This document shows, piece after piece, positions 57,776 through 62,176 of a stretch of DNA of 64,000 nt (positions are counted from its first letter, which is position 1; each line of letters starts with the position of its first letter). The translations under genes and the position numbers were made by a program. Below the pieces are notes generated by a model. It searched no databases, had not been told where the DNA came from, and worked only from the letters and a program-made list of their open reading frames with translations. Source of the DNA: Thermoanaerobacterium aotearoense (GTDB lineage Bacteria > Bacillota > Thermoanaerobacteria > Thermoanaerobacterales > Thermoanaerobacteraceae); assembly GCF_009905255.1 (NCBI RefSeq), contig NZ_CP047602.1:1240001-1304000 (forward strand), read 5' to 3'.

Positions 57776-59380
57776 ATGAATAAGAAAAACCTTAGGTTTA
57801 TTGTTTTAAATACTACAACGACACTTCTTATCTTATCTTTATTGATAAGGCTTTTTTATATACAATACGTAAAAGGCGAAACATACGCTAAAATTGCTGT
57901 AGACCAAAAAATTCAAAGTTTAAATTTAGACAAAAAACGTGGTGAAATCTACGATAGAAATTTAATACCTTTTACAGACAGAACTTCAATAAAATACGTG
58001 TATGCAATTCCCGGCTTGATCATCAATAAAAAAGCAGCATCACAAATCATAAATAAACTGACAGGCATTTCAGAAAGTGAGATATATAAAAATCTAAATA
58101 CTGGGAAAGATATTCTTAGTTATAAAGTAAAATATACATACGACGAAAAGTTGCCTGTCGGAATCTTTATACTCAATATTCCTCAAAGATATGACTCTAA
58201 TTCATTGGCGAGACACATAATAGGATACAGTGGCAGCACTAATTATGGATTGGAAGATACATTCAACAAAGTTTTAAGCACTAACGGATATGATTTCATA
58301 GCTGTATTTAAAGACAACAATAATGACTATTTAAAAGGATTGGGTGTAAAAATAAGAAGCACTGATAAAAATGTATATTCGATTCAAACTACACTCGATT
58401 ATCATATTCAGAAAGCGGTAGAAAATATTTTGGATAAAAACAATATTAACGGTGCTGCAGTTGTTTTAAGTGTAAAAAATGGAGATATTTTGGCAATGGC
58501 TTCAAGGCCCAACTACGACCAAAATAAAGTTAGCGATTATCTAAACAGCAAAAACGAAGAACTGCTAAACAAAGCAGTGATGAATTATCCGCCGGGATCC
58601 ATTTTTAAAATAATAGTGGCATCTGCTGCATTAGAAAATAAAAAGGTTAATATATACGATAACTTTATTGACGAACCGTACATAAACATCGATGGAGTGA
58701 TTTACCATAATTTTATGGATGAGTCAAATGGATTGATTAATATGATTAAAGCATTTGAAGTCTCATCGAATACGACATTTATAAAGATTGGGCAAAAGAC
58801 AGGTGGCGGCGATATAATAGAAATGGCAAAAAAATTTGGAATAACAAAGGACGATAATCTGCCGATAGAGGAACAAATTGGCACATTGCCATCATTGGAA
58901 AATACATTAGGTGCTGGGATAGGTAATCTTTCGATTGGGCAGGGAGATGTCACAATGACTCCGTTGCAAGCTGCCGATGTTGCAGCGACCATTGCCAATA
59001 ATGGTATAAGAAATGTTCCTAATCTTTTAAAAGCTATTGTAGACGAGAATGGCAATATTGTGGAAAATTTACACAAAGTAAATTCATACAGAGTTGTAAG
59101 TGAAAGTACAGCAGAAAGTGTAAAAGAAATGATGAGAGATGTTGTAGTAAATGGAACCGGAAAAAACGCAGAAACTGAGTATAAGTCGGCGGGAAAAACT
59201 GGTTCGGCTGAAGTAAACAGAGAAAAAAATATATATCATGCATGGTTTACTGGCTTTGTTCCTTATGATGAGCCTGTTTATGCAATATCAGTTTTTGTTA
59301 AAAATGGTGATATTGGTGGGATTAAAGCAGCTCCAATATTTAAACAAATAGCTGAAGAAATAATGAAATACTATAAATGA
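57776..59380 (+). CDS. class B penicillin-binding protein (transpeptidase)
   Basis: About 534 aa. One N-terminal anchor (about residues 9-30), a dimerisation domain starting LDKKRGEIYDRN, then the transpeptidase domain with PPGSIFKI (SxxK), VSSNTTF (SxN) and YKSAGKTGSAE (KTG). It crosslinks peptidoglycan; whether it belongs to the elongation, septal or sporulation group is not clear. No PASTA repeats. ATG 57776 is chosen, since AAAGGAG is 6-7 bases upstream. Confidence 0.92.
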   Translation: MNKKNLRFIVLNTTTTLLILSLLIRLFYIQYVKGETYAKIAVDQKIQSLNLDKKRGEIYDRNLIPFTDRTSIKYVYAIPGLIINKKAASQIINKLTGISESEIYKNLNTGKDILSYKVKYTYDEKLPVGIFILNIPQRYDSNSLARHIIGYSGSTNYGLEDTFNKVLSTNGYDFIAVFKDNNNDYLKGLGVKIRSTDKNVYSIQTTLDYHIQKAVENILDKNNINGAAVVLSVKNGDILAMASRPNYDQNKVSDYLNSKNEELLNKAVMNYPPGSIFKIIVASAALENKKVNIYDNFIDEPYINIDGVIYHNFMDESNGLINMIKAFEVSSNTTFIKIGQKTGGGDIIEMAKKFGITKDDNLPIEEQIGTLPSLENTLGAGIGNLSIGQGDVTMTPLQAADVAATIANNGIRNVPNLLKAIVDENGNIVENLHKVNSYRVVSESTAESVKEMMRDVVVNGTGKNAETEYKSAGKTGSAEVNREKNIYHAWFTGFVPYDEPVYAISVFVKNGDIGGIKAAPIFKQIAEEIMKYYK

Positions 59381-59390
59381 GACTTGCACC

Positions 59391-59435
59391 AAAGATTTTA
59401 AGTTGCATATATTTAATATGTGACTTAAAATCTTT
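59391..59435 (+). terminator. hairpin after the PBP gene
   Basis: AAAGATTTTAAGT / ACTTAAAATCTTT, 13-bp perfect stem with a 19-nt loop. Confidence 0.6.
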
Positions 59436-59619: not shown

Positions 59620-59648
59620 TTGACAAAAAAACTCAAATGAGGTAAAAT
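59620..59648 (+). promoter_or_regulatory. promoter of the mobile-element operon
   Basis: Perfect TTGACA, 17-bp spacer, TAAAAT; about 240 bases before the first gene. Confidence 0.7.
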
Positions 59649-59654
59649 TAAAAG

Positions 59655-59810
59655 GTAAAGTGAAGCAAGGGCAAAGTAGGGTTATGTTTAGTAAAGTGAA
59701 TATTGTAGAGCCAGAGACCAGAGCCGGTCATCCTAATGGATGATTTAGTGAGCCAGAGTCCTGAGCCGATGTTTTTATGCAGAAAAAGCATAAAGCGTCG
59801 GCTCTTTTTT
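59655..59810 (+). ncRNA. structured leader RNA with repeated GAGCCAGAG words and a terminator
   Basis: Two 19-nt units, GAGCCAGAGACCAGAGCCG (59708-59726) and GAGCCAGAGTCCTGAGCCG (59750-59768), flank a small hairpin TCATCC TAAT GGATGA (59728-59743). The GAGCCGA end of the second unit is the 5' arm of a strong terminator (59763-59804, TCGGCTC plus TTTATGC/GCATAAA) with T6. The first unit has the same GAGCCG and could pair instead, so switching is possible. Family not recognised. Confidence 0.6.
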
Positions 59811-59886
59811 ATTTGCCCCTCAAAAACATATAAAAGGTATTTAGGCGAGGTTCAATATTTATCATTGTTATAGGAGGTGATTTGAA

Positions 59887-60087
59887 GTGGAAAAACGGTT
59901 ACTACGATTGCCAGAGGTAGCAAGAATACTTGACCTAAAGGAGGATCGAGTTTATGCATTGGCAAGGCAAGGTATTATTCCAGTAGTTCGTATAGGACGC
60001 CAATTGCGGATTGACCCCACTAAACTTCAGCAGTGGATTGACAACGGTGGGCAAGGTTTTGCAGGCGGATGGAAAAAGGAGGCTTAA
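59887..60087 (+). CDS. MerR/excisionase-type helix-turn-helix protein
   Basis: 66 aa. RLPEVARILDLKEDRVYALARQGIIPVVRIGRQLRIDPTKLQQWID is the HTH_17 (excisionase/TnpA-like) fold. GTG start after TAGGAGGTGA. Such proteins regulate or direct excision of integrated elements. It heads the operon behind the leader RNA. Base composition is visibly more GC-rich from here on than in the chromosome to the left. Confidence 0.85.
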   Translation: MEKRLLRLPEVARILDLKEDRVYALARQGIIPVVRIGRQLRIDPTKLQQWIDNGGQGFAGGWKKEA

Positions 60088-60090
60088 AAA

Positions 60091-60270
60091 ATGAAAGCAT
60101 TACGACCACTTAAGGCGATTAGGCAAAAGTGCTTACAATGCAGTAATGACCAGCCTGCGGAGGTGAGGAAATGTCCGATAACGACATGTCCTCTTTACCC
60201 CTACAGGTCTGGCCATAAGCCTTCCAAAAAAGGGAAGGAAAAAGAAGAAAAGGAGTGTTACCATCAATGA
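60091..60270 (+). CDS. 59-aa Cys-rich phage/plasmid-type small protein
   Basis: LRPLKAIRQKCLQCSNDQPAEVRKCPITTCPLYPYRSGHKPSKK holds CxxC-(x)n-C-(x4)-C, a four-Cys zinc-binding pattern common in small proteins of phages and integrative elements. The ATG follows AAAGGAGGC by 8 bases, and the stop overlaps the next gene start. Function unknown. Confidence 0.78.
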   Translation: MKALRPLKAIRQKCLQCSNDQPAEVRKCPITTCPLYPYRSGHKPSKKGKEKEEKECYHQ

Positions 60271-60866
60271 CTTCTAACTTTATTGTAGCTGATAAATTTC
60301 AAGAAGTCAAAACATCGGTTACACTCCTAGAGGCGATTGAACGCTATGGGCTTAATCCTATAAAGAAAGGCTCACGTTATTGGGCATTATGTCCGTTCCA
60401 TGCCGACAAAAATCCTTCTATGGCAATTTATGATGAAGCCTATCATTGCTATGGATGCCAAGCACATGGCGATGTAATAGACTTCACAGCAAGGTATTTT
60501 AATATCACACCATTAGAAGCAACCAAAAAGCTAGCGAGTGATTTTGGCATACGCCTAGAAGGGAGTAAACCCAGCAAAGAGGCACAGCGAAAGATTAGGC
60601 AAAAGCAGGAGTTAGACAAGCTTTATAAAGAGTACAACAAAAAATTCAACGAAGTTTATGATTATCTTTGTCGGCTTAATCAATTATATCAAAAGATTAA
60701 GCAAGCTATAGAAACACCTGAAGATATGGATATTCCCGAATTTGTAGAAGCATGCCATATGCAGGACATAGTCCAATATTGGCTCAATGTCTTGTTAGAT
60801 GGCAACATAAAAGAAAAAATTCAAGTGTTGAAGGAGGTACAGGAATGGAAACAAAGGAGGAAGTAA
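60267..60866 (+). CDS. CHC2 zinc-finger primase-like protein
   Basis: 199 aa. The DnaG-type zinc-binding domain is complete (ALCPFHADKNPSMAIY ... YHCYGCQAHGDVIDF; C-x2-H ... C-x2-C), followed by a helical Lys-rich region (residues about 95-199) with no TOPRIM polymerase domain. It probably recognises DNA for the element's replication together with the DUF3987 protein downstream. ATG 60267 is preferred over GTG 60255, which touches the ribosome site. Confidence 0.85.
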   Translation: MTSNFIVADKFQEVKTSVTLLEAIERYGLNPIKKGSRYWALCPFHADKNPSMAIYDEAYHCYGCQAHGDVIDFTARYFNITPLEATKKLASDFGIRLEGSKPSKEAQRKIRQKQELDKLYKEYNKKFNEVYDYLCRLNQLYQKIKQAIETPEDMDIPEFVEACHMQDIVQYWLNVLLDGNIKEKIQVLKEVQEWKQRRK

Positions 60867-62176
60867 TTAGAGCGATCCGAGAGTTACATGCCGAAGATAT
60901 TTTTTCGGATAAGGTTACCAGCATACCAACAGAAAACAAGCAAAATTCCCTATTAAATGAAGCCGTACCTTATCCACAAGATTTTGCTCCTGAAGCATAC
61001 AGCGGAATAGCTGGGAAATTTGTCAAGGAAATACAAGACTATACGGAAGCCGATCCAGCGGCAATATTAATGAGTTTTTTGACCGCATGCAGTTGCTACG
61101 TAGGCAAAGGGGCTTATTTACAAATTGGAACCGAAAAATTTACGCCGAATATTTTTTGCCTCCTAATTGGCGACAGTGCAAAATCAAGGAAGGGAACAAG
61201 CTGGACACCTATTAGGGAAATATTTTTGAGGCTAGACCCTGTCTTTGAACGAGAACACATCAAAGGTGGTTTCGGAAGCGGAGAAGGCATTATTGCTAAA
61301 ATAAAAGACGATGACGATGGTGATGAAGAAAACAGACCAGACCAAAGACTGCTAATATACGAGCCCGAATTTTCTTCAATCCTCAAGGTAGCTTCACGAG
61401 AAGGGAATTTATTAAGCGATATTATCCGCAAAGCGTGGGATAATCTTCCGCTTGAAAATAACACAAAGCTTGAAGGCACATCTATAAGGGCAAGCAATCC
61501 ACACGTAGCGATATTGGCACATATCACAATGGCAGAATTGCTCAAACTGACAAAAGAAGTTGATATAAGCAATGGATTTTTGAACAGGTTTCTAACCATG
61601 TGCGTCAGGCGAAGCAAATTATTGCCACTAGCCGACCCAGTGCCAAATTGCATTTATAACGAGGCTGTGCAAGCCCTAAAAGGAGTAAAGGATTGGTTAG
61701 AAAGATTAGACGATAGAAGGCTTCAATTCGACCCTATTACGTCAGAGCTGTGGCAGGAAATTTATTCAACGCTGGCAAATGTCGATTACGGTGAGAGAGT
61801 AAACGCCCTGACAGCAAGGGGAGAACCATATATTTTAAGGCTTGGGTTGCTGTACGCAATATTGAACAAAAGTAAAATTATTATGCCAAGTCACCTATTA
61901 GCGGCACAGGCTATTTGGGATCGGAACGTGCAGTCCATAAGATTTTTGTTTGGCGAAGATACCAAAGAAAAAAAGATAATGGATGCAATCATTGAGGGAT
62001 TGAGGAAATACGGGAGCATGTCACAGACTGACATATATCGGAAAATATTTGGTTGCAACGTAAGTGCCGATAAAATTAAACATGCACTTCAACGATTATC
62101 AGCTAAAGGGCTGATTTCTGAAAATACAAATCATGATGGTCGGAGCAAGAAGACCATCATTTGGAAATTGAAATAG
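60845..62176 (+). CDS. DUF3987-family replication protein
   Basis: 443 aa. A P-loop-like segment FCLLIGDSAKSRKGTSW (about residues 98-114), a Walker B-like RLLIYEPEFSSIL, HVAILAHITMAELL, NGFLNRFLTMCVRRS and a C-terminal winged-helix region (YGSMSQTDIYRKIFGCN ... LSAKGLISE). DUF3987 proteins sit with primases in plasmids, phages and satellites and probably act as helicase/ATPase. AAGGAGGT precedes ATG 60845; it overlaps the CHC2 gene by 22 bases. Confidence 0.82.
   Translation: METKEEVIRAIRELHAEDIFSDKVTSIPTENKQNSLLNEAVPYPQDFAPEAYSGIAGKFVKEIQDYTEADPAAILMSFLTACSCYVGKGAYLQIGTEKFTPNIFCLLIGDSAKSRKGTSWTPIREIFLRLDPVFEREHIKGGFGSGEGIIAKIKDDDDGDEENRPDQRLLIYEPEFSSILKVASREGNLLSDIIRKAWDNLPLENNTKLEGTSIRASNPHVAILAHITMAELLKLTKEVDISNGFLNRFLTMCVRRSKLLPLADPVPNCIYNEAVQALKGVKDWLERLDDRRLQFDPITSELWQEIYSTLANVDYGERVNALTARGEPYILRLGLLYAILNKSKIIMPSHLLAAQAIWDRNVQSIRFLFGEDTKEKKIMDAIIEGLRKYGSMSQTDIYRKIFGCNVSADKIKHALQRLSAKGLISENTNHDGRSKKTIIWKLK

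Follow-up and report, generated by a model that had tools for sequence, protein, structure and literature searches.

A GAGCC-repeat terminator leader upstream of an excisionase-like operon in an integrative element of Thermoanaerobacterium aotearoense

The leader RNA upstream of the excisionase-like (xis) operon of a small integrative element in Thermoanaerobacterium aotearoense appears, with good support from comparative analysis, to belong, as an orphan copy, to an unnamed RNA element whose GAGCC repeats run into an intrinsic terminator. It displays the defining feature of that element, namely, at least two copies of GAGCC, the last of which lies within the 5′ arm of the terminator. The anatomy of the leader, its membership in the RNA element, and the link of this element to genes for zinc-ribbon proteins related to Com of phage Mu can be read directly from the sequences. 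Our preferred reading, to which we assign a probability of roughly 0.52, is that the leader acts as a transcription attenuator, with default termination before xis being relieved by a Com-like protein that covers the terminator arm.

The leader and its integrative element

The leader is located inside an integrative element of ∼6.8 kb, which extends beyond the window, that is, the whole stretch of 64,000 nucleotides analyzed here. The relevant features within the window are as follows:

59410-59431, strand not given: attL core, a 22-bp direct repeat, with the partner attR at genome positions 1306189-1306210, beyond the window
59620-59648, + strand: sigma-70-type promoter of the leader, TTGACA-17-TAAAAT
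59685-59744, + strand: 19-codon ORF MFSKVNIVEPETRAGHPNG, identified from the sequence and compared by eye with zinc-ribbon C termini
59708-59726, + strand: repeat unit 1, GAGCCAGAGACCAGAGCCG, putative binding site of a zinc-ribbon protein
59727-59749, + strand: inter-unit hairpin TCATCC/GGATGA and TTTAGT linker, common to the G017 contig (see below)
59750-59768, + strand: repeat unit 2, whose final GAGCCG forms the terminator 5′ arm
59763-59813, + strand: intrinsic terminator, GAGCCGATG...CGTCGGCTC followed by a U-run, -23.3 kcal/mol
59872-59879, + strand: ribosome-binding site AGGAGGTG, from the sequence
59887-60087, + strand: HTH_17/excisionase-family protein, 66 aa, first gene of the operon
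60091-60270, + strand: small Cys-rich protein, 59 aa, without a family match
60255-60866, + strand: CHC2 zinc-finger primase
60752-62176, + strand: helicase/primase-type replication protein (PHROG helicase, primase; ORF as listed, scanned from 60842)

The first-pass annotation of this DNA had described a strong promoter, two near-identical 19-nt units, a small hairpin between them, and a strong terminator before the excisionase-like gene, and each of these components is borne out by our analysis. The promoter matches the consensus at 11 of 12 positions and is the best of nine sites listed, the chance expectation for the region being 8.4 sites with at least nine matches. The two GAGCCAGAG..GAGCCG units are 89% identical, start 42 nt apart, and flank the TCATCC/GGATGA hairpin, whereas the terminator stem-loop was missed by a simple pattern scan, probably because its stem is bulged. 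The xis-like gene starts with GTG at 59887, with AGGAGGTG located 7 nt 5′ of this codon. The 19-codon ORF, which reads MFSKVNIVEPETRAG across unit 1, resembles, by eye, the last strand of zinc-ribbon proteins (e.g., ESIITIEPKSR) and may be what remains of the C-terminal strand from a gene of this kind.

The left flank is matched in eight of nine genomes of the genus, this genome counted, and the homology of the congeners ends at 59431 or slightly before; in all seven congeners read, the site is uninterrupted, with the flank passing from the repeat directly into a gene that, from the look of its protein, we take to be sigK. A tyrosine-type integrase, beyond the window, is the last gene of the element, and just before it, on the minus strand and opposite to the operon, lies a second small excisionase-like helix-turn-helix ORF, recognized by eye (L019:5403-5582). 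The element is directly flanked by a penicillin-binding-protein gene and the sigK-like gene (59380-59431; genome 1306189-1306226). Given that attR lies just 5′ of the ribosome-binding site of the sigK-like gene, the insertion separates this gene from its original upstream DNA by 6.8 kb, a skin-like arrangement in which excision of the element could restore sporulation control.

The earlier statement that the leader matches no known RNA family holds as well. At gathering scores, Rfam produced no match on the leader, while recognizing T-boxes, 6S, tmRNA, and tRNAs elsewhere in the window, and a search at E values up to 10 returned only three weak matches; T-box and known riboswitches were rejected for the leader. 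Rfam likewise gave no match on the motif itself at 20 and 10 further motif loci, a plasmid search with the leader sequence gave no match, and no description of a GAGCC-repeat terminator element was found in the open-licence literature. Among 101 genomes, this one included, a single convincing relative of the leader was detected by BLAST (83% identity over 63 nt, E = 1.6e-8), on contig C103 of genome G017, a member of the same bacterial family; the other BLAST matches look spurious, judging from the two that were read (L005 and L010). The G017 contig is phage-like and carries three units 3′ of a 49-aa zinc-ribbon ORF, the last unit running into a terminator, and it has the unit, the inter-unit hairpin, and a TTAGT linker in common with the leader. 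The closest relative of the leader follows a zinc-ribbon gene, of which the leader itself seems to retain only the last codons. A relaxed pattern matched 12 of 149 genomes, and, as far as these were read, only the two sites in this genome are in a leader; the match in L030, the only one read from the other matched genomes, is coding. The GAGCC repeats are absent from the leaders of seven near relatives of the xis gene (L047-L050 and L052-L054, with L051 and L055-L058 left out), which argues that the leader is specific to this element.

A wider GAGCC-repeat element and its zinc-ribbon neighbors

Scanning viral_contigs with the pattern AGAGCCN{1,14}AGAGCCGN{12,42}CGGCTCTTT yielded 95 stretches, compared with five and two for two permutations of the same composition. 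Loci L196-L307 contain 100 matches with 68 distinct cores; four loci thought to be chance matches (L234, L279, L289, and L296) were counted among the 68 cores and left out of the spacing counts and of model R1 described below. Three of the six genome_contigs stretches (L229, L232, and L234) also look like chance. Of the first viral patterns, one gave three stretches of GC-rich DNA without the anatomy of the leader and the other gave none, and the matches listed for GAGCC.GAG..GAGCC..GAGCC.GAG in viral contigs are nearly all low-complexity repeats of the GAGCC/GAGCCG type, with one C..C ORF upstream.

Because the search patterns fixed GAGCC, its constancy among the relatives is not evidence. 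In the first set, the covariation score of the three pairs that extend the stem past GAGCCG exceeds that of each of 500 shuffles. The sixth pair is G-C in the first scan and mostly A-T later and is therefore swapped as a whole pair, as a stem demands. With the sixth pair left free, the 75 nonredundant cores among the matches listed comprise 50 A-T, 4 C-G, 2 T-A, and 19 non-Watson-Crick combinations, and the 56 Watson-Crick pairs represent a modest excess over the 45.4 expected from the make-up of the columns. This swap between G-C and A-U among the relatives supports the terminator stem, not an alternative RNA fold.

The motif is often found 5′ of scaffold, terminase, or tape-measure genes: 15 of the 63 downstream proteins scanned match a head scaffolding protein, and single terminase, tape-measure, and HNH families are matched by two to four each. 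At least nine viral contigs carry two or more copies of the motif, within one stretch (L241, L269, L368, L422, and L423) or across loci (L204/L270, L278/L287, L199/L378, and L385/L402/L412), as a regulon would. At two loci, matches to known Rfam families lie between the motif and a scaffold-type gene without overlapping the motif, namely, GP20-b (L252:3366-3422, below the gathering score) and RAGATH-21 (L230:3222-3291). A type II hammerhead ribozyme match was also observed on a motif-bearing viral contig (L200:9217-9284).

To characterize the neighboring genes, we recorded ORFs of 30-130 aa with the pattern C2xC..C2xC ending within -300 to +80 nt of the motif. Such zinc-ribbon ORFs occur at 21 of the 68 distinct cores (5 of which have less than the full 300 nt of upstream DNA) versus 65 of 9,368 background positions (0.7%) in the same stretches, and, in the second scan, at 23 of the 75 nonredundant cores among the matches listed versus 203 of 11,126 background positions; the nominal P value of this association is not to be taken literally because the cores are partly related. 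Many of these ORFs terminate inside the repeat, and about two-thirds of the motif copies have no adjacent zinc-ribbon ORF. At E values up to 0.01, 14 of 22 zinc-ribbon proteins match Cys_rich_KTR and 6 of the 22 match the PHROG category “translational regulator,” and profile A4 of the zinc-ribbon proteins matches phage Mu Com with an hhalign probability of 92% (E = 5.6e-7). The AlphaFold model of the zinc ribbon is all-strand (pLDDT 77.7, pTM 0.49), and a PDB search with this predicted fold gave no significant match (best E = 0.41).

The spacing of the repeats also points to Com. In vitro selection is reported to have identified two kinds of site bound by Com, GAG(N)2CC and, as a single site within a loop, CC(N)2-3GAG (PMC6483171). 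Among two-copy cores, N is 2 or 3 in 29 of 45 (2 to 15 allowed), compared with 6.4 expected under an even distribution, so that the favored spacing among the relatives is that of the published Com site. The copies in the window are spaced with N = 1 and do not form the CC(N)2-3GAG site; this spacing is a minority one, seen for the last pair in 5 of 58 cores and in 10 of 75 among the matches listed.

There is no adjacent small zinc-ribbon gene at the leader itself, only the 19-codon remnant-like ORF being present in the window, and searches of this genome with profile A4, the 49-aa G017 protein, and PF14205 as queries did not find a Com-like zinc ribbon. Within the class, G017 is the only strong match to profile A4, and PF14205 was detected in 0 of 37 genomes, with the control searches also silent. 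The RNA itself can be recognized from its relatives. Model R1, constructed from 45 viral-contig and MAG sequences with the window, G017, and the spaced-type KTR genes excluded (and with L245, L254, L273, L274, and spacings over 5 also removed from the input), gave a single match in the window at E values up to 1, a modest one at 59756-59809 with a score of 21 bits (E = 0.0022). With the same model, G017 scores 19.4 bits at E = 0.006, and the E values for three KTR loci range from 2.5e-6 to 5e-6. In a genome-wide search with stricter filters, R1 matched 3 of 149 genomes, at KTR loci, and did not recover this genome.

Folding, a candidate mechanism, and its rivals

The predicted fold of the leader is more stable than those of all 200 dinucleotide shuffles (z = -5.0), and the GAGCCG of either unit can indeed pair with CGGCTC, as had been pointed out. 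On this basis, alternative folds through pairing of the two units with CGGCTC were suggested, which would amount to an RNA-only switch sensing a small molecule or another RNA. Such a switch has in its favor that GAGCCG is present in both units, but neither pairing is an antiterminator: both compete for the same 3′ arm adjoining the U-run, and, therefore, either would still terminate. Forcing the pairing of unit 1 costs 6 kcal/mol (-46.9 vs. -52.9 kcal/mol for the leader), and no Rfam family matches the leader. Because the pairings of units 1 and 2 both give a terminator-like hairpin, we regard the RNA-only switch as highly unlikely and favor protein-dependent read-through. Of the attenuator or riboswitch arrangement originally suggested, the attenuator-like character of this mobile-element leader and its lack of an Rfam match stand, whereas the small-molecule riboswitch is unsupported.

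Under the attenuator reading that we prefer, transcripts would by default stop before xis. A zinc-ribbon protein would bind the GAGCC repeats while they are still single-stranded, on their emergence from the polymerase; with the terminator-arm copy also occupied, the hairpin would be blocked, so that the presence of a Com-like protein would result in read-through and switch on xis and the replication genes. Holding the GAGCCG of unit 2 single-stranded changes the computed leader energy from -52.9 to -42.1 kcal/mol, a cost that the bound protein would have to pay or pre-empt, most easily during transcription. Among the relatives in phages and ICEs, the gene for the protein frequently lies immediately 5′ of the RNA, which would amount to autogenous control. 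In the present element, no more than the final codons of a zinc-ribbon gene seem to be left, and the protein would thus be supplied in trans, most simply by a co-resident or incoming phage. We infer the binding of the zinc ribbon, the direction of its effect, and its source; binding that prevents and binding that aids termination are both compatible with the evidence, and prevention is the direction adopted here. Several results weigh against this reading, namely, the failure to find a Com-like zinc ribbon in the genome, the N = 1 spacing, the modest R1 match together with the outcome of the genome-wide R1 search, the repeat-free leaders of the seven xis relatives, the many motif copies that lack a neighboring zinc-ribbon ORF, and the PDB search with the predicted fold.

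Several other explanations have to be weighed against this attenuator. The leader might be a decayed relic, left behind when a zinc-ribbon gene was lost except for its 3′ end, with an unregulated terminator that only lowers expression of the xis operon and insulates it. We consider this a real, if rather unlikely, possibility, consistent with the failure to find a zinc ribbon in the genome, with the resemblance of the leader ORF to only the C-terminal strand of zinc-ribbon genes, and with the N = 1 spacing. However, a near-consensus promoter lies just 5′, and both units are nearly intact and accompanied by a strong terminator stem, although drift should erode unused repeats. It is improbable, in our estimation, that a zinc-ribbon protein binds but acts otherwise, through stronger termination, RNA decay, or translation control, as in autogenous repression. 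The overlap of the site with the end of the zinc-ribbon gene in many phages fits such feedback, and Com itself is reported to work on translation (PMC6483171), but the last copy, both in the window and, owing to the search design, in the relatives, forms part of the terminator's 5′ arm, where binding competes with the hairpin. Finally, the overlap of the 19-codon ORF (59685-59744) with unit 1 raises the prospect of translation-coupled attenuation. This we deem very improbable given that the ORF has a poor ribosome-binding site and that its stop codon lies 19 nt before the terminator stem, so that a ribosome halted there would not be expected to extend as far as the 5′ arm.

Com/mom, KTR genes, and other systems

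The Com/mom system of Mu is similar in the nature of the protein, with the zinc-ribbon profile of the motif partners matching Com, and resembles the motif in layout. The native Mu site (1076-1094 of L335) falls within com (969-1157), where mom begins (1078), so a zinc-ribbon gene with its own RNA site, next to the controlled gene, is common to Mu and the motif. The two differ in that Com is reported to open a translation-inhibiting structure (PMC6483171), whereas the GAGCC repeats lead into a terminator of transcription, and the window lacks the gene for the protein.

Cys_rich_KTR genes (PF14205) offer a second parallel. They were identified in 6 of 199 genomes in a phylum sample, at 10 loci, 4 of which have a GAGCC terminator; the other 6, from two genomes, have none. 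As in the leader, repeats lead into a terminator: the end of the KTR gene encodes GAGCCAGACGC..GCAGAGCCGATAA, followed by a terminator with the 5′ arm GAGCCGAT, and at the four loci the gene end reads GAGCCAGACGC..GCAGAGCCGAT, with the last GAGCCGAT serving as the 5′ arm. In contrast to the window, the repeats are more widely spaced, and the gene is intact. To our knowledge, KTR proteins have no known function. An annotated plasmid record contains a KTR gene with the RNA element directly after tet(M) in a Tn916-type region (L334:4543-4743), and the terminator of this gene is followed by genes for regulatory proteins, excisionase, and integrase. For the activity of Tn916, transcription beyond tet(M) is important.

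Two other systems invite comparison. Like the proposed leader mechanism, canT of Tn916 involves an RNA through which transcription of an integrative element passes terminators, but it is processive and cis-acting (PMC11658703); in the passages covered, that work deals with terminators other than the one considered here, and its main text does not mention orf6. The canT region in L334 contains one GAGCC and no repeat array. In TRAP (mtrB) regulation, GAG repeats overlap an attenuator, a feature shared with the leader. TRAP attenuation was rejected for the leader, which differs in having too few repeats, and mtrB (PF02081) was not found in this genome, the control being positive in Bacillus subtilis.

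Taken jointly, these observations allow a tentative and rather speculative scenario, more likely wrong than right, in which many phages and some ICEs would share an antitermination system, with Com-like zinc ribbons reading through GAGCC-tagged terminators that stand 5′ of genes for packaging, scaffold, and tape-measure proteins and, in elements of the Tn916 type, 3′ of tet(M). The element in the window would then be an eavesdropper that has kept the RNA tag and lost the protein gene, and its xis and replication genes would depend on a phage-supplied protein to be switched on. If so, a small overlooked family, Cys_rich_KTR and its relatives, would gain a function, Com regulation would become one case of a wide transcription-control system, the terminator that directly follows tet(M) in these elements would be a regulated point, and small integrative elements would have a simple phage-sensing route.

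Two loci (L201 and L213) contain a KTR-type motif without a KTR gene, located directly 3′ of a methyltransferase-like ORF, which, from its appearance, we take to be a Cfr-type rRNA methyltransferase.
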